From Acetonema longum DSM 6540 (GTDB lineage: Bacteria > Bacillota > Negativicutes > Sporomusales > Acetonemataceae), in the NCBI RefSeq assembly GCF_000219125.1, contig NZ_AFGF01000049.1, forward strand, positions 62,001-126,000: a stretch of DNA of 64,000 nucleotides, read 5' to 3'. Positions within the stretch are counted from its first letter, which is position 1. Every line of letters starts with the position of its first letter. Made by a program: the position numbers and the translations under genes. Below, one piece after another: positions 43,486 to 60,206 of this stretch. The notes beneath the pieces were generated by a model. It was not told where the DNA came from. It ran no database searches and saw nothing but the letters and a program-made list of their open reading frames with translations.

Positions 43486-46400
43486 GTTTCAATCCATATG
43501 GGGCATGATGTTTTCCTTGATGGTATCCTTGATCATTTCGTTGTTCAATCCACGTGCCCGTACAGGCACGACAGGGCACACTGCTGTGGTCCACCCGGCT
43601 CCCTGTTTCAATCCACGTGCCCATACGGGGCACGACTGAGGCATATCTGGTTCCAACTGGCCTTTCTATGGTTTCAATCCACGTGCCCATACAGGGCACG
43701 ACAATACTCGGGACACAACCCCTCACCCCGGCTTTGTTTCAATCCACGTGCCCGTACAGGGCACGACGCAATCACTTTGTTTCGTTGCTTATTCTGAGAA
43801 GTTTCAATCCACGTGCCCGTACAGGGCACGACCCAAAACGACATTCTTGAGCGCAAAGTTCCAGGGGTTTCAATCCACGTGCCCGTACATGGCACGACGG
43901 GCATGCTGCGAGACATGCTCCAATTATCATACGTTTCAATCCACGTGCCCGCACAGGGCACGACAAAAAACTTTCGGGTAGCTGCACGAACGAAAGTAGT
44001 TTCAATCCACGTGCCCGTACAGGGCACGACCCTTTTGCCGGTACTCGTATTCCGGATTTCCTTTGGTTTCAATCCACGTGCCCGTACAGGGCACGACGCG
44101 AACGGTTTCGGCGGCTACCTTTTCATTAGCAGTTTCAATCCACGTGCCCGTACAGGGCACGACGGCAATAGCATCAGTGATCGGTTCTCTGCCGGATGTT
44201 TCAATCCACGTGCCCGTACAGGGCACGACTATTTTTGTATTAAATAACGAAGGTCTTTGCAAGGTTTCAATCCACGTGCCCGTACAGGGCACGACAAGCT
44301 GGAAAACGCCGACCTGCGGCGACAGGTAGTTTCAATCCACGTGCCCGTACAGGGCACGACGACTGGCCGTAAGAATCGCCATTATCCGAAATTGTGTTTC
44401 AATCCACGTGCCCGTACAGGGCACGACAATAAGCCGTTTAGGGTGGCGTGGTGATGATGCAGGTTTCAATCCACGTGCCCGTACAGGGCACGACGAGAGC
44501 GTGACAGACAGACCGACAAAAGCACATGTTTCAATCCACGTGCCCGTACAGGGCACGACAAAACCATCCTGGTCCCCGGCCATTGATATCAGTTTCAATC
44601 CACGTGCCCGTACAGGGCACGACCTGATGGCGCAAGTCATTGAAGTTCTGGCGAAGGTTTCAATCCACGTGCCCGTACAGGGCACGACATGACTTTAAGA
44701 CAGTTCTACGCCTATTGGAATGTTTCAATCCACGTGCCCGTACAGGGCACGACACGCCGCAAAATGGCTCCAGGTGATTGAGGACGTGTTTCAATCCACG
44801 TGCCCGTACAGGGCACGACACGATATGCCCACACTGCAGTCGAGGTATTTTACCGGTTTCAATCCACGTGCCCGTACAGGGCACGACACAAACATCGTAG
44901 GGATCAATGGTTTTTCCAATGTTTCAATCCACGTGCCCGTACAGGGCACGACTAAAACGTATTTACATACCCGGCACGGTAAAATGTTTCAATCCACGTG
45001 CCCGTACAGGGCACGACTGATCTACTAAAACAGATGCATTCGTTCATGCTGTTTCAATCCACGTGCCCGTACAGGGCACGACCTTAAATATGCGGAGGCG
45101 GTAAAGATGACAAAGGTTTCAATCCACGTGCCCGTACAGGGCACGACATGATTCATAAAACATATGTTTCATTATATATATGTTTCAATCCACGTGCCCG
45201 TACAGGGCACGACGTTGCAGGGCATTATCAATGGATTTAACATGACGTTTCAATCCACGTGCCCGTACAGGGCACGACAACTTGATTAGTTTATGTGACC
45301 AATGCCACAGTTTCAATCCACGTGCCCGTACAGGGCACGACGATCTCCATCAGGTGGGAGGATGGGAGAGTATTTGTTTCAATCCACGTGCCCGTACAGG
45401 GCACGACCAGAAAGCACTATATCCGGCATTCACGACACCGCCAGTTTCAATCCACGTGCCCGTACAGGGCACGACCGGCGCTCCAAGCCTGTCAGCCCAC
45501 TGCTCCGCCGCGTTTCAATCCACGTGCCCGTACAGGGCACGACCCCCCTGGTGGATTCCAGCACTCTGGCTATCGTCATCGTTTCAATCCACGTGCCCGT
45601 ACAGGGCACGACTGTAGCCCAAGCTATCAAAGCCCGTCCGATTGAGTTTCAATCCACGTGCCCGTACAGGGCACGACATGGGCAGAATCGCATAAATTAA
45701 AGGCGGACGTTCGGTTTCAATCCACGTGCCCGTACAGGGCACGACTCAATCATGAATAATTCACCCCCTTCATGGAGTGTTTCAATCCACGTGCCCGTAC
45801 AGGGCACGACCGAAGTTGACCGCAAAAAGCTGTTTAATGTCCTGTTTCAATCCACGTGCCCGTACAGGGCACGACCCTGATGTCGCTGGAAGGCGAAGCG
45901 TCGTAATGGTTTCAATCCACGTGCCCGTACAGGGCACGACGCACTAACCGCATGGTAGCCTACGTCAACGACAAGTTTCAATCCACGTGCCCGTACAGGG
46001 CACGACCGGCCCAAAGACTTGTTCGAGTTTGAAGAGGCTAGTTTCAATCCACGTGCCCGTACAGGGCACGACGTATAACGCTATTGCCTTGGCCGTATGT
46101 CTTACGGTTTCAATCCACGTGCCCGTACAGGGCACGACCTGTGGATACACAGTCTTCTTTAAAAAATGAGGTTTCAATCCACGTGCCCGTACAGGGCACG
46201 ACTCCTTGAAACGTGCCAATTCATCAGCAATGTAAGTTTCAATCCACGTGCCCGTACAGGGCACGACCGGTTGGCCGAGTTAAGGAGGTGTTCATTGTGA
46301 TGTTTCAATCCACGTGCCCGTACAGGGCACGACGAAATTCTCAAAGAATATGCGGATGGTAAAAAGTTTCAATCCACGTGCCCGTACAGGGCACGACCCC

Positions 46401-47916
46401 GTCCACCGCCGGATGTCAGACCCATTTTTTCGTTTCAATCCACGTGCCCGTACAGGGCACGACCTCCCATGGCATTCGATATTAAGCTTCCTAAATTTGT
46501 GTTTCAATCCACGTGCCCGTACAGGGCACGACCGACCCAGGGCCAACAAATCCAGATACATCAGCGTTTCAATCCACGTGCCCGTACAGGGCACGACCCG
46601 TTCTTGTTCAAGCAAGGCAAGGTACTCTGCCAGTTTCAATCCACGTGCCCGTACAGGGCACGACGTCAGCGGACTTACCGTGACCATGGATGAGCTGGTT
46701 TCAATCCACGTGCCCGTACAGGGCACGACTCGCTATGCCTGGCTTTACTCCAATATCTTCGAGTTTCAATCCACGTGCCCGTACAGGGCACGACCAGTGC
46801 GGATTTTTTTATTTCGCTTATTTGCTTGTTTCAATCCACGTGCCCGTACAGGGCACGACAACTTCGTTTGCAGTATACAGCACCTCATCTATGTTTCAAT
46901 CCACGTGCCCGTACAGGGCACGACGGTTCAGCGGCGAACGCAGAGGAATTTTATTAGAAGTTTCAATCCACGTGCCCGTACAGGGCACGACTTCGCTATG
47001 CCTGGCTTTACTCCAATATCTTCGAGTTTCAATCCACGTGCCCGTACAGGGCACGACGCAATCTACTTGATAAAACTAATTAATCTTAGGCGTTTCAATC
47101 CACGTGCCCGTACAGGGCACGACGGCGGGTGACAGGGGTACTGAAATGATGATACCGTTTCAATCCACGTGCCCGTACAGGGCACGACATCATTATACCT
47201 TCCTCCAATTTTCGGTTGATTGGGTTTCAATCCACGTGCCCGTACAGGGCACGACCAGAAAAAAGATACGGAAAACTAAAGAAAACCGGGTTTCAATCCA
47301 CGTGCCCGTACAGGGCACGACATCCATCTTGCCAGGTGAGCGGCCGATACGTTTTTTGTTTCAATCCACGTGCCCGTACAGGGCACGACATTATTTTTAT
47401 TCTAATCGCCTTACCTTCCAGGGTTTCAATCCACGTGCCCGTACAGGGCACGACCGGCACGATGGAATGAGTATTAAATATTAGGAGGTTTCAATCCACG
47501 TGCCCGTACAGGGCACGACGGCCGGGAAAAAGTTGATCATCGACAGCGTCAACGGTTTCAATCCACGTGCCCGTACAGGGCACGACGCCGGCCCCAAATC
47601 CAGCATGGCCTTTCCGATAGGTTTCAATCCACGTGCCCGTACAGGGCACGACGGGCCAAAGACGGAGCGTCGCGGAGATCATTTTACAGTTTCAATCCAC
47701 GTGCCCGTACAGGGCACGACTGCGTTGACGACAGCCTTAAAACCCTGGGAATGGTTTCAATCCACGTGCCCGTACAGGGCACGACTATAGACCACGATGT
47801 TGTGGTCATCACTAAGCGGTTTCAATCCACGTGCCCGTACAGGGCACGACTAATACGCGGGATCAATGTATTCCAGTACACAGGGTTTCAATCCACGTGC
47901 CCGTACAGGGCACGAC
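43486..47916 (-). CRISPR. Type I-C CRISPR array 1 (about 68 repeats, 67 spacers)
   Basis: 32-base repeat, on the plus strand GTTTCAATCCAC, then stem GTGCCC, loop GTACA, stem GGGCAC, then GAC; spacers are 33-36 bases. Read on the minus strand the repeat ends GTGGATTGAAAC, the type I-C form, so transcription runs leftward from the leader at 47917. The left end is the old, trailer end: a truncated repeat at 43486, a damaged one at 43540-43572, then variants at 43605 (loop ATACG) and 43671 (ATACA). Other variants occur at 43867 and 43933. One spacer (47189-47223) matches 56298-56332 exactly, and one spacer occurs twice. Confidence 0.98.
47189..47223 (-). other. Self-matching spacer in array 1
   Basis: This 35-base spacer is identical over its full length to 56298-56332, the ribosome site and start codon of the DUF3892-like gene next to cas3. 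In crRNA orientation the target flank is GATT before the first spacer base C. The expected TTC motif is therefore present but shifted one base into the spacer. Confidence 0.9.
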
Positions 47917-48082
47917 TGTCAAACTCATGACACATTAAAATCATGCATCAAAACACATGATTTTGCGAATCAAAAATTCCTTCACTTAAATAAATCGGTT
48001 ACACCTAACGCAACATCAATTATCCCTGAATCTACGCGCCTTGCGAACTACCCTGAATTCCAATGTTCGCTTAAGGTTCGCA
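47917..48082 (-). promoter_or_regulatory. CRISPR leader of array 1
   Basis: A 166-base AT-rich stretch between the newest repeat and the cas2 stop codon. It begins TGTCAAACTCATGACACATT next to the repeat and shares most of its length with the stretch beside array 2 (59958-60125), which marks it as the functional leader carrying promoter and integration signals. Confidence 0.88.
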
Positions 48083-48373
48083 TCAAAGCATTAAAACCCC
48101 TTCCGGATCATATCCAACCTTAGCGCCAAAATGTTCTACTCTGTTTTTCCAATTGCTTCCCAGAAAATAATAGCGCAAACTGTCAGTATTTGGATCGACA
48201 ATACTTTCTAATCGGTGTTTTAATTCGGCAAACTGTGTAGGATCGACCAAACATTCAAATACCGAATTTTGAACACGCTGCCCATAATTGACACATTGCT
48301 TAGCTACTCGGCGAAGCCGACTCTTGCCTAAGTCGGTTGTCACATTCACATCATAGGTAATCAGCACTAACAT
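48083..48373 (-). CDS. cas2: Cas2
   Basis: A 96-residue protein, MLVLITYDVNVTTDLGKSRL with the typical first-strand Asp, and QNSVFECLVDPTQF. With Cas1 it forms the spacer-integration complex. It is the last cas gene, ten bases after cas1, and abuts the leader. A 27-codon remnant of a second cas2 lies at 60126-60206. Confidence 0.96.
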   Translation of the reverse strand: MLVLITYDVNVTTDLGKSRLRRVAKQCVNYGQRVQNSVFECLVDPTQFAELKHRLESIVDPNTDSLRYYFLGSNWKNRVEHFGAKVGYDPEGVLML

Positions 48374-48383
48374 GCCTATGACC

Positions 48384-49415
48384 TCACTTCCAGAAAAATG
48401 GCGGATAATCTTCCAGATCGCCCCTCAGGTGCCTAGCCAAGAGCAGGGCTTGGACATAAGGAACAAGTCCCAACGGAATTTTCTCTTCTAAATAAGGATG
48501 GGTGATTTCCTCTTGTTTTCGTTTTTGCCAGGAAGTAAGTACTTCTTTGCGTGTTTCATCGCTCATGATGACAGCGCCGTTTTCTTTCACGACAAAGCCG
48601 GCTTCAGAAATCTGATTGCGGTTGATTAGCGTTACTGCCAATCGATCCGCAAAGTGAGGCCGTAGTTCTTCCATAACATCCAGTGCGAGGCTTTGTCGTC
48701 CGGGCCGGTCTCGATGCAAAAAACCAACCTGTGGATCCAGACCGACACTTTCCAGAGCTGCTGCAACTTCATGAGAGAGCAGTGTGTACAGGAATGACAG
48801 CAAAGCATTGACCCGATCTGTCGGCGGTCGTCTGTTACGGCCGAAAATGGGAAAGCCGTCTTTTTGACTGACTATTAATTGATTGAAGTTAGAAAAATAA
48901 AGATGCGCCGCTTCTCCTTCAATCCCTCGTACTGTATTGCCATCCAATGCTTTTTCTAGTCGCTCCGGCATCCTCGCCAAACACGCCATAGCATACTCCA
49001 ACGCCTTATTGTCGACAACCTTCCCGTGGTCTCGGAGGGCGCGATGCAATACCGCCCTGCTGTTGATAATCTTTGCTGCAATAAATCGCCGTGACAACCG
49101 AACGGATATCTCCTTATCATCGGCCCAGCGATATTGCGTCCGTCGGAGTAAAACGTTGCCTGAAACATTACCTGTTATACGCCCCATAAACTTGCCGTAT
49201 TCGTTTAAAAATGAAAGAGCTACCCCGCGTTCGCAGCACAAATACATAAGCTTGGGACTGGCTCCGGCAAAGCCAAAACAGACAATACCCTCCAAGTTAT
49301 GCACTGGCACTCGAAACCGAATTTCATTATCTACTTTCACTAACACATTCTCGCCATCGCAGGCTAAATAGGCATCCGGTAAGGTAACATACAGCGTATT
49401 CAGAAGTCGCCTCAA
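48384..49415 (-). CDS. cas1: Cas1 (type I-C)
   Basis: A 343-residue integrase; motifs include TLYVTLPDAYLACDGENVLV near the start and GFLHRDRPGRQSLALDVMEE with the metal-site His and the Asp/Glu following. I place the start at the TTG overlapping the cas4 stop (TTGA), with GGAGGT upstream. This gives the usual I-C length; the frame is open 27 codons further up inside cas4. Confidence 0.95.
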   Translation of the reverse strand: MRRLLNTLYVTLPDAYLACDGENVLVKVDNEIRFRVPVHNLEGIVCFGFAGASPKLMYLCCERGVALSFLNEYGKFMGRITGNVSGNVLLRRTQYRWADDKEISVRLSRRFIAAKIINSRAVLHRALRDHGKVVDNKALEYAMACLARMPERLEKALDGNTVRGIEGEAAHLYFSNFNQLIVSQKDGFPIFGRNRRPPTDRVNALLSFLYTLLSHEVAAALESVGLDPQVGFLHRDRPGRQSLALDVMEELRPHFADRLAVTLINRNQISEAGFVVKENGAVIMSDETRKEVLTSWQKRKQEEITHPYLEEKIPLGLVPYVQALLLARHLRGDLEDYPPFFWK

Positions 49416-50122
49416 GAATGATCTACCTCCACATGGCACATGCGCGCCAAATAGCTTTCTACTGAACGATGACGCAACATCCATTGCGGCTGACATTGTT
49501 CAACCAGAGAGCACTGAGAGCAGTGTTTCCCCTTCTGCGGCTTTGGAGTGATTTCTTCCCTGGCAAGCTGATGCATGCGTGTGGCCAATTCAACAGTATG
49601 CTGCCGCAGAGCTATATCGAAGAAAACCGATTCACGATGTTTAGTTTGTCCATAGAAAAGAAAGCCGGACGGGATAGAGATTACCATCATTTCTTCCAAA
49701 GCCATAGCTTGAGCGCAAAGCTGAACAGCATCTCGATCATCAGGTTTGGGACGGCCTCGCTTATACTCGACCGGAACAGGCCTCCACCAGCCCTCACGCT
49801 TTTCCAGCCGGCACATTTCACCGCTCACAACTTCCTGACTCTGGTGAAATTCCACCACATCGGCAACACCCCGCAGGCCAATCTGATACGAAACTAATGG
49901 CATGGCCCGTATAACCCGCAGAGTTTTACGGGTTTCATCCTTATAGGGATCATCTGCTCGCTCATGGAGATGCTTGCCCTCTACGGTCCGGACATTCTCC
50001 GCCCACACTTGTTCCAAGTGTATAAGAGCCCACTGTCGCTCACAAAAGGCGATATGTTGGATACCTGAAAGTAAAAGAAGATCATCGTCGGAATATTTCT
50101 TTTCAGTTTCAAAGTTTCTCAA
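49412..50122 (-). CDS. cas4: Cas4 exonuclease
   Basis: A 236-residue RecB-type nuclease used in PAM selection and prespacer trimming. The iron-sulfur Cys are FCERQW near the start and [11 protein letters not shown] near the end. The nuclease core is [11 protein letters not shown] with [12 protein letters not shown]. It starts with TTG inside the last codons of cas7 and overlaps cas1 at its end. Confidence 0.95.
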
Positions 50123-51020
50123 TGAATGTCACGCCTTGCGGAATATCGTCTGTGCTCACAGAAATAACATAATCACTGAAATCTCTTGCTGGTTTGCCAG
50201 TATCTTTTCGCTTTATTTTTATAGCGTCAAACAGCTTCTGAACCGGAGCATCCCCCATCTTAGACGCATGTTCAAAAACAAACAGCTTTCTTGTTCCCAT
50301 TAACCCTCGGGCAGCCGAACGATCATGCTCGAACATTTTTTCAAGCGCTTCCCAAAGAAGTTCCAGATCCTCTTGTGAAAAACCGGTCTGATTTGCCAAC
50401 GGTGCTGAAATAAAACCATGGGCGCGATAAAGTCCATAGGGAACAGTAAACTTCCGGCCCATTGTACGATTATCGCCACCTTGCTTTTCCGCCTCAGCTT
50501 CTGTTGCAACCGCCATACGAGTAATGCTATGCTCAAGGGACACAATAGGTTCTACCGAGCGTGCAAAGGTAAACTGCACTGGGCCGCGAACTTGTCCGGC
50601 ATTAGCTCCCGTTGATAGAACAGCTCCAAATGTTCTAATGTCAAAAAAGTTTTGACACATAAATTGCTTGGCCCGATCCACCTCTTTCCCTTGACCCTGC
50701 CCGGGCTTATTTCGCTTTTTACCATCTGCCGAATCGGTCGGAGGTTGTTGCAAATCAATATTTAAGCTAGCATAAGCCTGCTCAATCGTATTGTTTAATA
50801 TAGATTTTTCTTTAACGAAAATTCCATAAGGAGCTTTTTCTTCTTGTTTTAGGCTAACATAATTCCTTACTTTTCTTTTTAAACAAACATCGGTAACCAG
50901 CCCATGTCCTGTTTCTGCATCTACACGGGGTAAATTGCCCGCATCCGGATCTCCATTAGGATTTCCGTCTTTAACGTCAAATAATATGACAAAATCATAA
51001 CGTTTTTGAATGGTACTCAT
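50109..51020 (-). CDS. cas7: Cas7c (Csd2) backbone subunit
   Basis: A 303-residue RAMP protein forming the crRNA-covering backbone of the I-C Cascade. It starts [20 protein letters not shown] and contains [13 protein letters not shown] and [17 protein letters not shown], all typical of Csd2. It is encoded between cas8c and cas4. Confidence 0.96.
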
Positions 51021-51048
51021 ATTTTACACCCTTTCTAAATTTTTTTAT

Positions 51049-52776
51049 TCATTTGTCACTTTCCGCAACACCTTTGCTAGTGAAAAAATCTTGCCGCTGA
51101 TGATAATAGCCGATGGCGAAACGTCCTTGCTCGTGCAAATCAAGCTGGGCGGGAAAGTCTTTTAAATTTCCGATGATTTCACCCAATAACCGTTCAAAAT
51201 TCACTACTCTTCCTTTATTGTCGAGTTTTGCAAGATGGTGATTTTTAAGGCGAAGCAGATTCGTAAAGACAGTTACCGGGGTTGCACAGGCGGCACCGTA
51301 AAAACGCTCTCGGATAGTAGCATTGATTCCTGGATTCGCCTCTTCTTGAATCTTTTCCAGTGTGGCAAATAACCTTCCCAGTTGATAACCGATTGAGGGT
51401 TGTGAAATATCCAATTCCATCTGAACCTCCCTTTGGTTTTGATCAGGATAAAATTGATAATAACGATTTAAATAGGCTTTAATCAACGCCGCCCGAACTG
51501 GTTTAACCCTGTTTTCCGTATCGCTGCGGATTCGCCGCAACACGGCTTGCAGCAATGTAGCCGGATAAGGCATTCCTGTCAAAATGGATCGCATGAAATC
51601 CCCGGCAAGATTCGGCGGAATATTTTCGCTCTTATCTTGGGTAGCGATATTTACTAAGATGCGCCAAATAGAATAATACTCCGGCTCTCTAGGTGGTTTG
51701 ACAATGGCAAAATCCTTAAAGTATTGATGAATCCGAACGGCAATTTCGGCAATGGTTCCAATCTGCCAAAAGCGAACAGCAATGCGAGCGGCATTAGGGG
51801 CCAGCCCCAAGATGTAGAATGGGGTCTTGCCGTCATCTTCCCGATAAGCGCCGCTATGAATTGACTCAAATAATGCCTTAACATTTTGCGTGCCTGCATC
51901 AGGATTGTCTTTTTCCGGTTCTTCAAAAAAGGAAGAGAACTCGGATTCAAAGGATGATTGCTTTTTTGACCAAAAGACAGTGGAGGCATCTCCGATCAAA
52001 AGACGTTGTTTAGAATCTCTTCCCAGCAGTGTATTGATAGCAGTTGTATAAGAAAATTCAGCCTCAGCGCCTACCGGTGCATTAAACCCTTGCTCTTTCC
52101 CGTATGACTTAAAGGCATCAAGATTAAAAGAAACAATATTAGCTCCTGCAGTTTGAGCACCATACACCCCCTTAATGGATGTATGAAGCACTTTGATCCT
52201 CGCATTCTTCCCTGTTACCAGGCAAGTTCCTGATATATCATTTGAGCTTTGGCTTGTTGAAGAAAGCCTTGATACAACATCAGGATGGCGACATATTAAA
52301 AATGAGTCTGCACTCATTCGAAAAGAGAGATTGGGGTTTGATGCAGAGATTTCTTGCCAGCATTCCTCTTGTGAGAGTCTTTCTTCTGTAACGTTTGTAA
52401 GGAAAGCAATGACTGCTTGGACAACTTTAATATCCCCAAGTTCATTTGTTAAACGGTCAATAAAAGCATTCTTTTGTTTAATAGCACGTTCATTGTTTCC
52501 TTTTGTAGCAATCCCCAATACATATCCGGCATTTTCCCAAAGAAGATTAGCGGCAATCCCCGATGTCTTTTTTTCTGCTTGAGGTACCAGAAAGGCTTTT
52601 GCTCTTTTTTTCTTTCCTTCACCTTCCCGCGTATCCTCAATTTGCATCAAATTCCCCGCATGATCTAAGACAATAATAAAAGGTATTTCTTTCTTTTCCC
52701 AGCCTTCTGGCGCAATATCGCTCTCAGGATCGGATGCCTTACGGTCATAATATTCCTTCAACGCCTGCAGTATCAT
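51049..52776 (-). CDS. cas8c: Cas8c (Csd1) large subunit
   Basis: A 575-residue type I-C large subunit that recognises the PAM. In I-C systems an internal start within cas8c also yields the small subunit Cas11c, which may apply here but was not located. It starts MILQALKEYYDRKAS and contains CLVTGKNARIKVLHTSIKGV. Its ATG overlaps the cas5 stop by four bases (ATGA). Confidence 0.95.
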   Translation of the reverse strand: MILQALKEYYDRKASDPESDIAPEGWEKKEIPFIIVLDHAGNLMQIEDTREGEGKKKRAKAFLVPQAEKKTSGIAANLLWENAGYVLGIATKGNNERAIKQKNAFIDRLTNELGDIKVVQAVIAFLTNVTEERLSQEECWQEISASNPNLSFRMSADSFLICRHPDVVSRLSSTSQSSNDISGTCLVTGKNARIKVLHTSIKGVYGAQTAGANIVSFNLDAFKSYGKEQGFNAPVGAEAEFSYTTAINTLLGRDSKQRLLIGDASTVFWSKKQSSFESEFSSFFEEPEKDNPDAGTQNVKALFESIHSGAYREDDGKTPFYILGLAPNAARIAVRFWQIGTIAEIAVRIHQYFKDFAIVKPPREPEYYSIWRILVNIATQDKSENIPPNLAGDFMRSILTGMPYPATLLQAVLRRIRSDTENRVKPVRAALIKAYLNRYYQFYPDQNQREVQMELDISQPSIGYQLGRLFATLEKIQEEANPGINATIRERFYGAACATPVTVFTNLLRLKNHHLAKLDNKGRVVNFERLLGEIIGNLKDFPAQLDLHEQGRFAIGYYHQRQDFFTSKGVAESDK

Positions 52777-53507
52777 CCCCGCACCTCCACTTCCCTGCGG
52801 TCTGCATTCACTGCCCCATTTTCAATCCAGGCCCGGAAAAATAAAGGTATCGGGTCATTTTCATCTTTTTCAAAATCCATATCATACAGCATAAACCCTA
52901 GATCCCGCGTTTCTTCAATCAACTCAACCGGCTCCTTCTGGGGATCTACCAGCCTGAAATCACAGGCAAATTCCCGGCAACCTAAATAAGGCCGGTGAAA
53001 GCACTGGCCTTTTTTTGCCCGCCGTTCAAACATGGCTGCATATTTTGCCTCGGTTTCATCCAAGCGTATTTTTTCCGCCAGTTCTTGCTCATCTGCCCAA
53101 AATTCAGGCGAGACTGAATGATTTGCTTTCCTTTGATCCGGGGGGATAAAGTCGAAATAGCCATAAATACGATACCTGACATCCCTCAGAAAGAGTCCGG
53201 CCCGTTGTTGGCGTTCATCTTCAATAAAAATACCCATAGGTTCGCCTAATGCGCCAGCCATCTGCTTTGCTGTAGGATTAGGCATCTTTCTCCCCACTTC
53301 ATTACGGCGAACAGAAATCCATTTAATCGGGTTAATCACTTCGATTTTTGTTACGTTCCAGCGAATGGCCGGTTTCCAGAGAATGGACTCAAAGATAGCT
53401 CTGGCTGCCGATGGCGTCATCACATCGTAACTTACCCGTTCCACTTTCATTTCCGGACGGGTGAAACAAGCATAGTCGCCCCATACTTCTAAACACCAGT
53501 TATGCAT
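52773..53507 (-). CDS. cas5c: Cas5c (Cas5d) crRNA-processing endoribonuclease
   Basis: A 244-residue RAMP protein that, in I-C systems without Cas6, cuts the repeat 3' of its stem-loop to leave an 11-nt 5' handle and then caps it. It begins WCLEVWGDYACFTRPEMKVE and contains YDVMTPSAARAIFESILW. Here the predicted handle is UGGAUUGAAAC, which also occurs in the solitary crRNA-like gene at 56653-56763. AAGGAG precedes the ATG. Confidence 0.95.
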   Translation of the reverse strand: MHNWCLEVWGDYACFTRPEMKVERVSYDVMTPSAARAIFESILWKPAIRWNVTKIEVINPIKWISVRRNEVGRKMPNPTAKQMAGALGEPMGIFIEDERQQRAGLFLRDVRYRIYGYFDFIPPDQRKANHSVSPEFWADEQELAEKIRLDETEAKYAAMFERRAKKGQCFHRPYLGCREFACDFRLVDPQKEPVELIEETRDLGFMLYDMDFEKDENDPIPLFFRAWIENGAVNADRREVEVRG

Positions 53508-53522
53508 TTTATCAACTCCTTC

Positions 53523-55787
53523 CTAAATAATAAATGAATCTGGATCAAAAGGGGTTTCATCAACTAAAAGACCTGTATCCCTGGAATAATCCAGATTAGT
53601 TGCCAGTGCAAAAATGTTAGGCTGCACTTCTTCAATTGCTCCTCGCTGTTGCATATGATAAAAATCAGTATTGTAGATATTCACGGTATATCGTTGAATC
53701 TTCCTCATCAACCAACGGTCCGGCCCTCTTGATTTTAGTAAATCAATCAATTTTTCACTTTCATCATACCGGACAATAATTGTTTTTAGCTGAGAATCAT
53801 CGATTATACGGAATATTTCCGCTGCCGTTCGAAAATAAATACTGCATTCTTGGGAATCAGGCTTTAGATACCTAAGAATCTCTTTTTCATCCAGCGAATT
53901 AGCCTTCCAATATAATTCTGAGAAATATCGTTCATATACAGCATGATCTGACGGATCCTGACACCCGCTCAAAAATATGCTGCGAGTCGTTTCTTCCGCT
54001 TTGCGAAGAATCCCTATGGGAGCTTTTTTCGGCGCATTAAAGACAATGACCTGTCCCAGTCCGGATAGTTTACCCTCCCGGTTGCAGCGGCCTGCTGCCT
54101 GAGCAATAGAATCCAACCCGGCAAGAGCCCGGTAAACGACCGGGAAATCCATGTCCACACCTGCTTCCACAAGCTGAGTGCTAATCACCCGAACCGGCTC
54201 TTTATTTTTTAATTTTTGTTTGATCTTCTCGATAATTTCAGTGCGATGCCGGCCGCACATCAAAGCCGATAAATGAAACGTTCCCTCAGGCATTAAACCA
54301 TGCAGTGTACGGCAGCTTTTTCGGTCGGAAACAATGCACAATACTTGTTCATATTGCTTTAATGCGGCCGCAATATCTTCCCAAACGGATGGAGTGCGAA
54401 TATCTTCCGGTAATTGAACCTGATACCGTTTTAGTGAATCATAAAGTGATTTTACCTCTTCCCGATTCCCCATGATCTCTTTGATATTCTTCAACCCCGG
54501 AAACGATTTTCCATCCACTATTCGCTCACCGAAGGCCGGTTGGGTTGCGGTGGAAATGATAAAAGTAACATGATAATGTGCTACCAGCAGTTGCATGGTC
54601 TCAAGAATAGGGGCTAAATATTCAACCGGCACTAATTGGGCTTCATCTAACACCACTACTGAATTTACAATATTGTGCAGCTTACGGCAGCGGCTGGACT
54701 TAGCGGCGAAAAGCGATTCGAAAAATTGCACCGTAGTAGTAACTATGATGGGAGCATCCCAATTTTCTGAAGCCAAGCGAGATTTTACAGTAGAATCATC
54801 TTCGTCCAAACTGGAATGATGTTCTACTACTTGATCGGCTCCCACCACTGAACGGAATACATCGGCATTTTGCTCGATAATGCTGGTGTAAGGGATTACA
54901 TAAATAATCCGGTCCAAGTCATGCTTTTTAGCATGCTCAAGGCCAAATGCAAGGCCTGACAATGTTTTTCCACCGCCTGTCGGCACTGAAAGAGAAAAAA
55001 TGCCCTGTGGCTTTTGAGCCATTTGTATACACTTTTCCCGGATACTTCTTCGAATTGCATTAACTTTCGTATTTTCCGCTGTTTCATCTAGTTTCTTACT
55101 GAATTGATGAAATCGTTCCAAGAGTTCCGGGATAGAACAATAGTCACCTCTGATACCGGCCTGAGCGTCGTCCATATAAGATTCCGTATCCAAGAAATCC
55201 GCATCCACCAGGCATGAGTACAGCATCCTGATCCACAAAGACACATCCAGTCCTCTTGAAAATTTCCAGGGAGGCGTTCCCGGCTTTGAGGATTGCATTT
55301 TATCTAAAATAAATCCAGCAACATTATTTAAATCCTTTACATGATCCTCCTGAAACTGCAACGAGGATTGTCCCGCCCCTTCGGCGCTGGACCAATCCGG
55401 CAAACCTGCATGATGCCCGGCAATACAATATGCCAATAACCTTCCAGGTCCTTTTCCTAAGATATCTTCCGTCAGTCTTGCTCCGTGAATAGCATGAGGT
55501 ACTTTCCCTGATTTCCCTTCTAAATGCGCTTCTTCATCATAACCACTTTTAGCACCGATATATTTTTGCCATTCTGGCCTGCCTTTGCCTGCATCATGAG
55601 CCAATCCGGCTATCTTTCCCCATTTTCCGGAATGAAACTTGGCGGCAAAAGTTTCTGCTAATCCTGCGGTGCCATCCAAGTGTTGAGATAATAAATGCGG
55701 AGAAGCCCATGTGCCGTCATCGTTTTTACGCACATGGGCGATGAATTCATTTTGACTCAAAGGAAAAAAACGATTCAATAAACTCAC
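53523..55787 (-). CDS. cas3: Cas3 helicase-nuclease (HD and DExH domains)
   Basis: A 754-residue fusion of an N-terminal HD nuclease (SQHLDGTAGLAETF; GLAHDAGKGRPEW) and a superfamily 2 helicase: Walker A VPTGGGKTLSGLAF, motif II VVLDEAQLVP, motif III ISTATQ, motif VI QAAGRCNREGK. It degrades target DNA after Cascade binding. The start is GTG at 55787 or the TTG nine bases on, which has GAGGTG at better spacing. It is the first gene of the cas operon. Confidence 0.96.
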   Translation of the reverse strand: MSLLNRFFPLSQNEFIAHVRKNDDGTWASPHLLSQHLDGTAGLAETFAAKFHSGKWGKIAGLAHDAGKGRPEWQKYIGAKSGYDEEAHLEGKSGKVPHAIHGARLTEDILGKGPGRLLAYCIAGHHAGLPDWSSAEGAGQSSLQFQEDHVKDLNNVAGFILDKMQSSKPGTPPWKFSRGLDVSLWIRMLYSCLVDADFLDTESYMDDAQAGIRGDYCSIPELLERFHQFSKKLDETAENTKVNAIRRSIREKCIQMAQKPQGIFSLSVPTGGGKTLSGLAFGLEHAKKHDLDRIIYVIPYTSIIEQNADVFRSVVGADQVVEHHSSLDEDDSTVKSRLASENWDAPIIVTTTVQFFESLFAAKSSRCRKLHNIVNSVVVLDEAQLVPVEYLAPILETMQLLVAHYHVTFIISTATQPAFGERIVDGKSFPGLKNIKEIMGNREEVKSLYDSLKRYQVQLPEDIRTPSVWEDIAAALKQYEQVLCIVSDRKSCRTLHGLMPEGTFHLSALMCGRHRTEIIEKIKQKLKNKEPVRVISTQLVEAGVDMDFPVVYRALAGLDSIAQAAGRCNREGKLSGLGQVIVFNAPKKAPIGILRKAEETTRSIFLSGCQDPSDHAVYERYFSELYWKANSLDEKEILRYLKPDSQECSIYFRTAAEIFRIIDDSQLKTIIVRYDESEKLIDLLKSRGPDRWLMRKIQRYTVNIYNTDFYHMQQRGAIEEVQPNIFALATNLDYSRDTGLLVDETPFDPDSFII

Positions 55788-56023: not shown

Positions 56024-56302
56024 TCATTCCCGCGGCAATTTCAGCAGATTATCATGCGGAGAATCATTTGCTTGAGATCGCACATATTTTTCATCATAAG
56101 CACTAAGTGCCGGTAAAAGGTCAGGGAAAGGAGCAATATTCACTTGAATTGAACGAGGATTTTGCACCAAACAATCATAAACTGCTGCCTTTTTGTAAAA
56201 GCCCGGATTGATACAATCAGCTACATAAATTTCATCAATTTCCACTAAGTTATTTGAGAAATGACAACCCGATTTCATTTTTATTTTTGTTGCTTTCATC
56301 AT
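56024..56302 (-). CDS. DUF3892-like small protein upstream of the cas operon
   Basis: A 92-residue protein starting MMKATKIKMKSGCHF. Its C-terminus KYVRSQANDSPHDNLLKLP resembles the end of DUF3892 proteins (an RS...NNL..LP pattern); the match is judged by eye. GGAGG eight bases before the first of two adjacent ATGs supports this start; an earlier in-frame ATG at 56359 also has a GGAG. The start region is an exact match to an array 1 spacer, and a crRNA-like gene lies 350 bases away on the other strand. It may be CRISPR-controlled or CRISPR-controlling. Function unknown. Confidence 0.7.
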   Translation of the reverse strand: MMKATKIKMKSGCHFSNNLVEIDEIYVADCINPGFYKKAAVYDCLVQNPRSIQVNIAPFPDLLPALSAYDEKYVRSQANDSPHDNLLKLPRE

Positions 56303-56375
56303 TATACCTTCCTCCAATTTTCGGTTGATTGGAATCAAAAGACCTGTACATTTTTGCATTCACTCCTTTCCGCTG

Positions 56376-56962: not shown

Positions 56963-59957
56963 GTTTTCCTTGATCACGGGGATGACCATCGCTGGCCAGC
57001 GGCAGTTGTCGCCAGTCGCTGTTTCAATCCACGTGCCCACACGGGGCACGACTTTATCCAGCGGCGATTAGTGGCTTATCGCCAATGTTTCAATCCACGT
57101 GCCCACACGGGGCACGACGGTTTCAGGTTGGTAATGTCCAGACGCTTGAAGGTTTCAATCCACGTGCCCACACGGGGCACGACTGCTATTCCAGTTCGCT
57201 TTTTCCGCGTCTGTTGCGTTTCAATCCACGTGCCCACACGGGGCACGACGTTATGTGCGCGGCGGAGTACTGGACGAAGAATTGTTTCAATCCACGTGCC
57301 CACACGGGGCACGACAGGCGGTTACGGAAACGATGTTTGTATATCCGGGTTTCAATCCACGTGCCCACACGGGGCACGACGATAGATACAAACACGTCCC
57401 GTGTGCCTAAATTATGTTTCAATCCACGTGCCCACACGGGGCACGACGCATAGGTTAAGGTGGTGTAAAGGTCATCTTCTTGTTTCAATCCACGTGCCTA
57501 CACGGGGCACGACATCTGCGCTAATTTAAGACGGTTTGCCGTTGCAAGTTTCAATCCACGTGCCCACACGGGGCACGACATCAGGGGGGGAGAAAAGGGC
57601 TGGATGGTCAAGTTTCAATCCACGTGCCCACACGGGGCACGACTACATCGACCCCGAACTCTACGCCCTAATGACCGTTTCAATCCACGTGCCCACACGG
57701 GGCACGACAAGGATGGCAAACGTTTATGATAAATGGTCAAAAGTTTCAATCCACGTGCCCACACGGGGCACGACGTATGTTTTGCTATACCAAAAATCCA
57801 TTTTATAGGTTTCAATCCACGTGCCCACACGGGGCACGACGAAAGGAGCAGGCGGCGGAAGTAGCGATACATGAAGTTTCAATCCACGTGCCCACACGGG
57901 GCACGACGCAATCACAGCCTTAAACAGCGCCGTCCAGGACCTGTTTCAATCCACGTGCCCACACGGGGCACGACACGGAAGGCATTATGCAGGCGCAAAG
58001 TCTGGAGTTTCAATCCACGTGCCCACACGGGGCACGACTCTTATCGGCACATACCCATGAGTTGTCTTGCTGGTTTCAATCCACGTGCCCACACGGGGCA
58101 CGACGCAGGCCCCCATAAATCACCTCTACTGCTGCAGTGTTTCAATCCACGTGCCCACACGGGGCACGACCTGCTGTGGTGCACTCTAAATATGCCCAGG
58201 ATGGTTTCAATCCACGTGCCCACACGGGGCACGACATACGCTGGAGTTGTCGCCGCCTTTCTCCACGGTTTCAATCCACGTGCCCACACGGGGCACGACT
58301 TTCGCGGTAAATGCCGCCAAATACTCAAAAGAAGTTTCAATCCACGTGCCCACACGGGGCACGACCTGATGGGCCAGATGCTTCCCGGAGGGCTTGATGC
58401 GTTTCAATCCACGTGCCCACACGGGGCACGACAGAAACTGGGGTTGAACCTAGAATGGATTAAAGGTTTCAATCCACGTGCCCACACGGGGCACGACATG
58501 GCTGCTTTGCTGAACTAAAAATGCTGCTTGCCAGTTTCAATCCACGTGCCCACACGGGGCACGACTAGGGTCGCCATCTTTTCTGCCGTCTCCAGGCAGC
58601 GTTTCAATCCACGTGCCCACACGGGGCACGACACCTTGCAGGCACGGGATAATCACCTGATTGATATTGTTTCAATCCACGTGCCCACACGGGGCACGAC
58701 TTTCGCCCCTCTTTCTTGTTTTTTCTCATGATAGGTTTCAATCCACGTGCCCACACGGGGCACGACGTCAAACTGCTGCCACGCCTTATCCGTATCGAGT
58801 TTCAATCCACGTGCCCACACGGGGCACGACGAGCCTACCTGGGCAGTACGCTTATCCATGAGGTTTCAATCCACGTGCCCACACGGGGCACGACCAAAGC
58901 TGTTAAGCCGCTTGATATTCGTCTTATTGTTTCAATCCACGTGCCCACACGGGGCACGACTGGCGTAAGAGGAGTTGGGATGACCACAAATATAGTTTCA
59001 ATCCACGTGCCCACACGGGGCACGACGCCGCCCTTTGGGGTGGTATTTCTTTATGTTGTCGTTTCAATCCACGTGCCCACACGGGGCACGACGGGAGCTC
59101 AAGCAGGCGACGCAGCCTGACACACTGGTTTCAATCCACGTGCCCACACGGGGCACGACCATAAACGTGACGCAATTCTGCAGCGGGATAACTACGTTTC
59201 AATCCACGTGCCCACACGGGGCACGACTGGATGGTGGTTTGATTATTCGCCAACGGAAAAACGTTTCAATCCACGTGCCCACACGGGGCACGACCTGCAG
59301 CCACACCACCGGCCACACCGGTTATTATAGTTTCAATCCACGTGCCCACACGGGGCACGACGTAGTTTGATCATAAGATCACCTCATTTTCAAAACGGTT
59401 TCAATCCACGTGCCCACACGGGGCACGACGAGGCATGCTGCGGGACATCGCCCAGTTTTCATAAGTTTCAATCCACGTGCCCACACGGGGCACGACAGAT
59501 AGTCGCTTAAGTTTACGTCGATCATAGAGGTTTCAATCCACGTGCCCACACGGGGCACGACGGAAGGAAAAAAGAATAAACATTACCTATAACTGGTTTC
59601 AATCCACGTGCCCACACGGGGCACGACGATATAAACCGCTGTTGGGCAGTTGTATTCATTTGTTTCAATCCACGTGCCCACACGGGGCACGACCATGTTA
59701 AAATTTTCGTCAACCTCCACCAGTTCAGTTTCAATCCACGTGCCCACACGGGGCACGACCTCCTGGCTTATATCGAGCAGGTTGAGCAGGAGCGGTTTCA
59801 ATCCACGTGCCCACACGGGGCACGACTGCCGCCGTGGATAATCTGGTTTTTACTTACGCGTTTCAATCCACGTGCCCACACGGGGCACGACGCCGTATGC
59901 TCTGATAAGTCTTCGCTAAACGCATGTTTCAATCCACGTGCCCACACGGGGCACGAC
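56963..59957 (-). CRISPR. Type I-C CRISPR array 2 (about 46 repeats, 45 spacers)
   Basis: The 32-base repeat is the same as in array 1 except for the loop: GTTTCAATCCAC, GTGCCC, ACACG, GGGCAC, GAC. 45 full repeats run from 57021; a shortened, degenerate one at 56963-56986 with a 34-base spacer marks the old end. One repeat (57482) has a T in the stem. The leader lies to the right (59958-60125), so it reads leftward like array 1. No cas genes follow the leader, only a cas2 fragment, so the array depends on the cas operon at 48-56 kb. Confidence 0.97.
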
Positions 59958-60125
59958 TGTCAAACTCATGATACATTAAAATCATGCATCAAAACACATG
60001 ATTTTGCGAATCAAAAGTTCATTCACTTGAAATAAAGCATTTTGTACCTAACTCAACATCAATTATCCTGTAAACTACACGCCTTGCGAACTACCTTGAG
60101 TTCCAATGTTCGCTTGGGGTTCGCA
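59958..60125 (-). promoter_or_regulatory. CRISPR leader of array 2
   Basis: Begins TGTCAAACTCATGATACATT and stays alignable with the array 1 leader throughout, including CATGCATCAAAACACATGAT and CGCCTTGCGAACTACC. Similarity is highest beside the repeat. Confidence 0.85.
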
Positions 60126-60206
60126 TCAAAGCATTAAGACTCCTCTCGGATCATATCCGGCCTTAGCTTCAAAATATTCTACTTTATTTCTCCAGTTACT
60201 TTTAAT
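60126..60206 (-). pseudogene. cas2 3'-terminal fragment
   Basis: On the minus strand about 26 codons read SNWRNKVEYFEAKAGYDPRG then VLML and stop, matching the end of the intact Cas2 (SNWKNRVEHFGAKVGYDPEG, VLML). An in-frame stop precedes the fragment and no start exists. The junction cas2-end/leader/array is thus duplicated here. Confidence 0.85.

Follow-up and report, generated by a model that had tools for sequence, protein, structure and literature searches.

The oldest repeats of CRISPR array 1 of Acetonema longum carry variant loops, which probably (about 0.6) represent a mixture of inherited copies and private changes. An earlier reading of the same DNA, here called the first-pass annotation, had interpreted them as a fossil series leading in single-base steps from the loop of array 2 (ACACG) via ATACG and ATACA to GTACA. 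Overall, our analysis confirmed this account in part. Common descent of the two arrays is well supported, the ordered series is interrupted on both sides of the supposed intermediates, and the direction of change is unproven.

Two type I-C arrays around a single cas operon

Within the window, the 64,000-nt stretch of DNA that was analysed, a cas operon lies between two CRISPR arrays of the same orientation (Table 1). The gene products passed the NCBIfam cutoffs for Cas3 (TIGR01587, TIGR01596), Cas5c, Cas8c, Cas7, Cas4, Cas1c and Cas2. No cas6 was seen among the operon genes, and the gene set cas3-cas5c-cas8c(csd1)-cas7(csd2)-cas4-cas1-cas2 without cas6 is that of type I-C. The repeats agree with this type: they are 32 nt long, end in GGATTGAAAC, contain one hairpin (7-bp) and are separated by spacers of 33-36 nt. 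A pattern scan of the whole genome allowing up to 3 mismatches gave 111 repeats, of which 110 are countable inside the window; among the matches listed, every repeat is located on the contig of the window. Array 1 is transcribed from the right. As the leader is on the right in both arrays, the left end is the oldest.

The leaders of arrays 1 and 2 are identical in 153 of 172 aligned columns (~89%), up to the cas2 stop. Since the likeness runs on into cas2, as a relic of 26 codons, the array 2 leader once adjoined a cas2 gene; it may stem from a duplicated locus end or be the leftover of a second locus. No relationship was found between the trailer flanks of the two arrays. Leaders and relic make a solid case, based on sequence comparison, that arrays 1 and 2 are paralogous and descend from one common ancestor. 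Paralogy itself does not tell which loop came first. No spacer is common to both arrays, and only one similar pair was detected. These related, non-identical spacers, located at 43899-43932 in array 1 and 59430-59464 in array 2, were probably derived from homologous genes of related phages.

Table 1. Features of the type I-C locus and of the old end of array 1 (window positions).
Feature	Position	Strand	Remarks
CRISPR array 1, type I-C	43486..47916	-	68 repeats including two degenerate; consensus loop GTACA; adjoins cas2
Terminal degenerate repeat, array 1	43486..43510	-	7-base deletion across stem and loop; C>T changes; normal spacing to next repeat
Second-oldest repeat, array 1	43541..43572	-	loop GTACA; one stem base (G) deleted; first two bases changed
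Repeat with loop ATACG	43605..43636	-	array 1
Repeat with loop ATACA	43671..43702	-	array 1
Repeat with loop GTACA, loop-closing stem pair broken (G>T)	43867..43898	-	array 1
Repeat with loop GCACA	43933..43964	-	array-2 base at position 2; three GTACA repeats older
Leader of array 1	47917..48085	-	between array and cas2
cas operon cas3-cas5c-cas8c-cas7-cas4-cas1-cas2, type I-C	48083..55787	-	NCBIfam hits
Small gene, weak DUF3892 match	ORF 56024-56359	-	start region matched by an array 1 spacer
CRISPR array 2	57021..59957	-	45 repeats, loop ACACG in all; stem variant at 57482
Leader of array 2	59958..60128	-	alignment to array 1 leader
Relic of last 26 codons of cas2	60129..60206	-	tblastn; 69% identical to live Cas2 at the amino acid level; adjoins array 2 leader

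Loop sequences toward the trailer of array 1

The loop was defined as the five plus-strand bases between GTGCCC and GGGCAC. The consensus repeats of the two arrays differ in three loop bases (GTACA vs ACACG). ATACG at 43605, ATACA at 43671 and ACACG in 45 of 45 array 2 repeats had all been read correctly in the first-pass annotation. Its statement that the later repeats of array 1 carry GTACA applies to the bulk of the array, that is to 43736, 43801, 43867 and the other 60 repeats, all younger than 43933; the repeat at 43933 itself is an exception. The remnant at 43486 consists of GTTTCAATCCA-TATGGGGCATGAT and lacks a full loop. Neither this remnant nor the repeats at 43541 and 43933 had been used for the proposed series. 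An ACACG loop was not found in any array 1 repeat, and an array 2 repeat continuing directly into array 1 was rejected on this ground.

A fossil series runs in one order without return. Read from old to young, loop position 1 is G, A, A, G and position 5 is A, G, A, A, and the claimed order of one-base steps from trailer to leader is broken by GTACA at 43541 as well as by GCACA at 43933. The repeat at 43541 is of the array 1 type at all three diagnostic positions, and a spacer of normal length separates it from 43605. Since it precedes 43605 on the trailer side, the supposed intermediates have GTACA on either side of them. In the reading preferred below, GTACA was already present when the ATACG and ATACA repeats arose, so that these two do not make up a one-way series from array 2.

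All five aberrant repeats are found within the oldest seven of 67 (43541 to 47916; P = 2.2e-6), and chance does not account for their concentration at the trailer. Accumulation of propagating repeat mutations at the leader-distal end has been described (CRISPRDetect, PMC4869251). Among the seven substitutions of the old repeats, four are array-2 bases. With substitutions allowed anywhere in the repeat, the match to the shortest path toward ACACG has a probability of P = 0.002 (transitions only) or 3e-5 (uniform). The same match has P ~0.11 (about 1 in 9) if the changes are transitions within the 5-base loop. The latter is the fairer figure, since variation among related arrays is found mainly in the loop, where positions 1, 2 and 5 undergo transitions as well. 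Moreover, the order of only two intermediates amounts to about one bit of information.

Relatives, ancestral loop and readings of the old repeats

Repeat states in related arrays pass on in runs but also come back. In a very long type I-C array (L063, G092:C123, 5852-19868) the repeat type switches in blocks, which in the stretch read comprise GCAGG 1, GCACG 20, GCAGG 4, GCACG 12 and GCAGG 179; a repeat type once lost returns in this array. In another genome, blocks of the standard repeat are interrupted by five repeats whose loop is one base longer, and in a third the loops alternate between ATGAA and GTGAA. As repeat states return in relatives, the position in an array alone gives no path. 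The first-pass annotation had regarded variants at random positions along the arrays of related strains as evidence against its series, and the relatives display variants of this kind: outside the trailer, variant repeats form blocks after which the earlier type returns. The supporting observation it had suggested, an array with ATACG or ATACA as consensus, was found neither in 84,980 species genomes scanned for this exact stem nor in 380 genomes of the class; as these sets included no second genome of the genus, the absence is weak evidence. Its premise that the leader-end repeat is copied into new repeats is borne out by the inheritance of variants in relatives and by published work (PMC2886076, PMC4869251).

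In Escherichia and Salmonella, repeat variants run in stretches, which was taken as evidence that a new repeat copies the adjacent one (Touchon and Rocha 2010, PMC2886076). The likeness lies in these runs of variants. In contrast, the Escherichia and Salmonella arrays are of type I-E and I-F, whereas array 1 is of type I-C, has mostly single variants and was compared with a sister array. Array 1 also resembles the cases described in the CRISPRDetect paper (PMC4869251) and those of Streptococcus agalactiae, in which degeneration of the terminal repeat is a standard feature (PMC4466440), in that the oldest repeats gather mutations and the terminal one is degenerate. Unlike in these cases, several changes in array 1 affect the loop bases that separate it from the sister array. 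Propagated repeat variants have already been published; array 1 adds an instance and no new principle.

An uncultured Oceanospirillaceae, known from a metagenome genome, likewise carries two arrays (L009/L010) on one contig, with leaders homologous to each other and different loops. Its cas2-linked array has the loop GTACG, but the three oldest readable repeats have GCACG, the loop of the sister array, which makes it a clear instance of the principle behind the first-pass annotation. The older-looking loop thus occupies the oldest cas2-linked repeats and equals that of the sister array, whereas the old loops of A. longum are not identical to those of the sister.

The relatives with the closest Cas1 have the loops GTACG (one genome, Cas1 82% identical) and GCAAG (three genomes), and position 1 is G in both Oceanospirillaceae arrays. 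On this comparison, A at position 1 is more likely derived than ancestral, and G was probably the ancestral state, contrary to the claimed A-to-G step. At position 5 the ancestral base was probably G as well, which agrees with the claimed G-to-A step. In a copy model, a small two-state template-copying sketch with inherited and private changes and with assumed rather than fitted rates, ACACG as ancestor reached at most 0.5%, and GTACA, ATACA, ATACG and GTACG were inseparable as the oldest loop. Because the outcome hinges on the reading of the 43486 remnant, the model shows only this openness and that ACACG is disfavoured. Of the proposed descent of array 1 from an array 2-like ancestor, the common origin is retained on account of leaders and cas2 relic, and the start from ACACG is disfavoured by the outgroup G at position 1 and the model value.

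Our preferred reading starts from a pair of paralogous type I-C arrays on either side of a single cas operon. The leader-end repeat would be copied for each new repeat, so that a base change at this site would be inherited by later repeats. Old repeats would additionally gather private changes, and the variants in the oldest array 1 repeats probably reflect both processes, mixed in a weakly constrained 5-base loop. Most likely, the common ancestor carried GTACG, GCACG or a similar loop; array 1 would have exchanged G for A at position 5, and array 2 would have made this change at position 1. Some observations run against a mixture. An inherited run would be expected to leave A at position 1 of neighbouring repeats, as is seen in 43605 and 43671 and possibly in the 43486 remnant; moreover, four of seven old-repeat substitutions point toward array-2 bases, and the Oceanospirillaceae genome presents the sister loop in its oldest repeats.

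Those observations are closest to the path ACACG, ATACG, ATACA, GTACA frozen in array 1, with 43541 explained as a later private change or as gene conversion from a neighbour. ATACG and ATACA do stand in the right order, the end of the 43486 remnant (ATATGGGG) is nearer to ATACG/ACACG than to GTACA, and the three oldest readable Oceanospirillaceae repeats with the sister loop offer a parallel. We nevertheless consider this path rather unlikely: 43541 agrees with array 1 in every diagnostic base, array 1 is devoid of ACACG repeats, outgroup arrays have G at position 1 and an ACACG root obtained no more than 0.5% in the copy model.

Purely private decay, with GTACA as the array 1 repeat from the outset and the old variants arising separately by mutation in relic repeats, is about equally improbable. 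In its favour, the variants are confined to the oldest repeats, the GCACA loop and the stem change at 43867 each occur once without being inherited, and the array-2 match has a chance of about 1 in 9 under loop transitions, at positions where relatives vary too. On the other hand, ATACG requires two loop changes in one repeat, right beside an ATACA repeat with which it has A in common, P for the array-2 match is 0.002 or less under unrestricted mutation, and relatives clearly inherit variants in runs. Recombination or gene conversion that placed array-2 bases into a few array 1 repeats is highly improbable. The arrays share their orientation, their leaders are homologous, their repeats are almost identical, and a single crossover within the loop can give ATACA. 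However, ATACG and likewise GCACA would take a double exchange inside five bases, the arrays have no spacer in common, and arrays have been reported to recombine only rarely with one another (PMC11472070).

If trailer repeats reliably keep ancestral states, arrays carry a dated record of repeat evolution and array duplication; array 1 does not demonstrate this. Since variant loops reappear and revert, such readings have to take in outgroup arrays and every degenerate terminal repeat. It is quite doubtful that, in type I-C loci with two arrays, the one linked to cas2 generally tends to change its loop while the satellite array keeps the older one, so that old trailer repeats would date the split. 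One other genome, that of the Oceanospirillaceae, fits this pattern.

Stem integrity and array 1 spacers

The stem had been described as unchanged, as Cas5c requires. The first part is wrong in detail: the loop-closing pair is broken in two full repeats, 43867 (G>T) and 57482 (C>T), and 43541 is one stem base short. Both pair-breaking changes weaken the predicted fold from ~-13 to ~-9 kcal/mol. The second part is overstated. In a review citing Nam 2012 (PMC7064716), a 3-bp stem with a tetraloop is given as the reported minimum for Cas5d. As this would be enough, an intact 7-bp stem would not be required, though it is the rule in arrays 1 and 2.

The repeat was not found in viral contigs, a plasmid search with the end and leader of array 2 returned weak matches only, and the search for phage targets of array 1 spacers yielded only a 24-base match at chance level. 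The array 1 spacer at 47189-47223 matches its own genome perfectly over 35 bases at 56298-56332, and the sequence occurs nowhere else in the genome. The match lies at the ribosome-binding site and the start codon of the small gene just upstream of cas3. The usual PAM of type I-C is TTC; the PAM-side flank at 56298-56332 is ATT, shifted by one base. Furthermore, a 33-base spacer is present twice in array 1, at 46730-46762 and at 46992-47025. The second copy is one base longer, as if the spacer had been acquired twice with a one-base slip.
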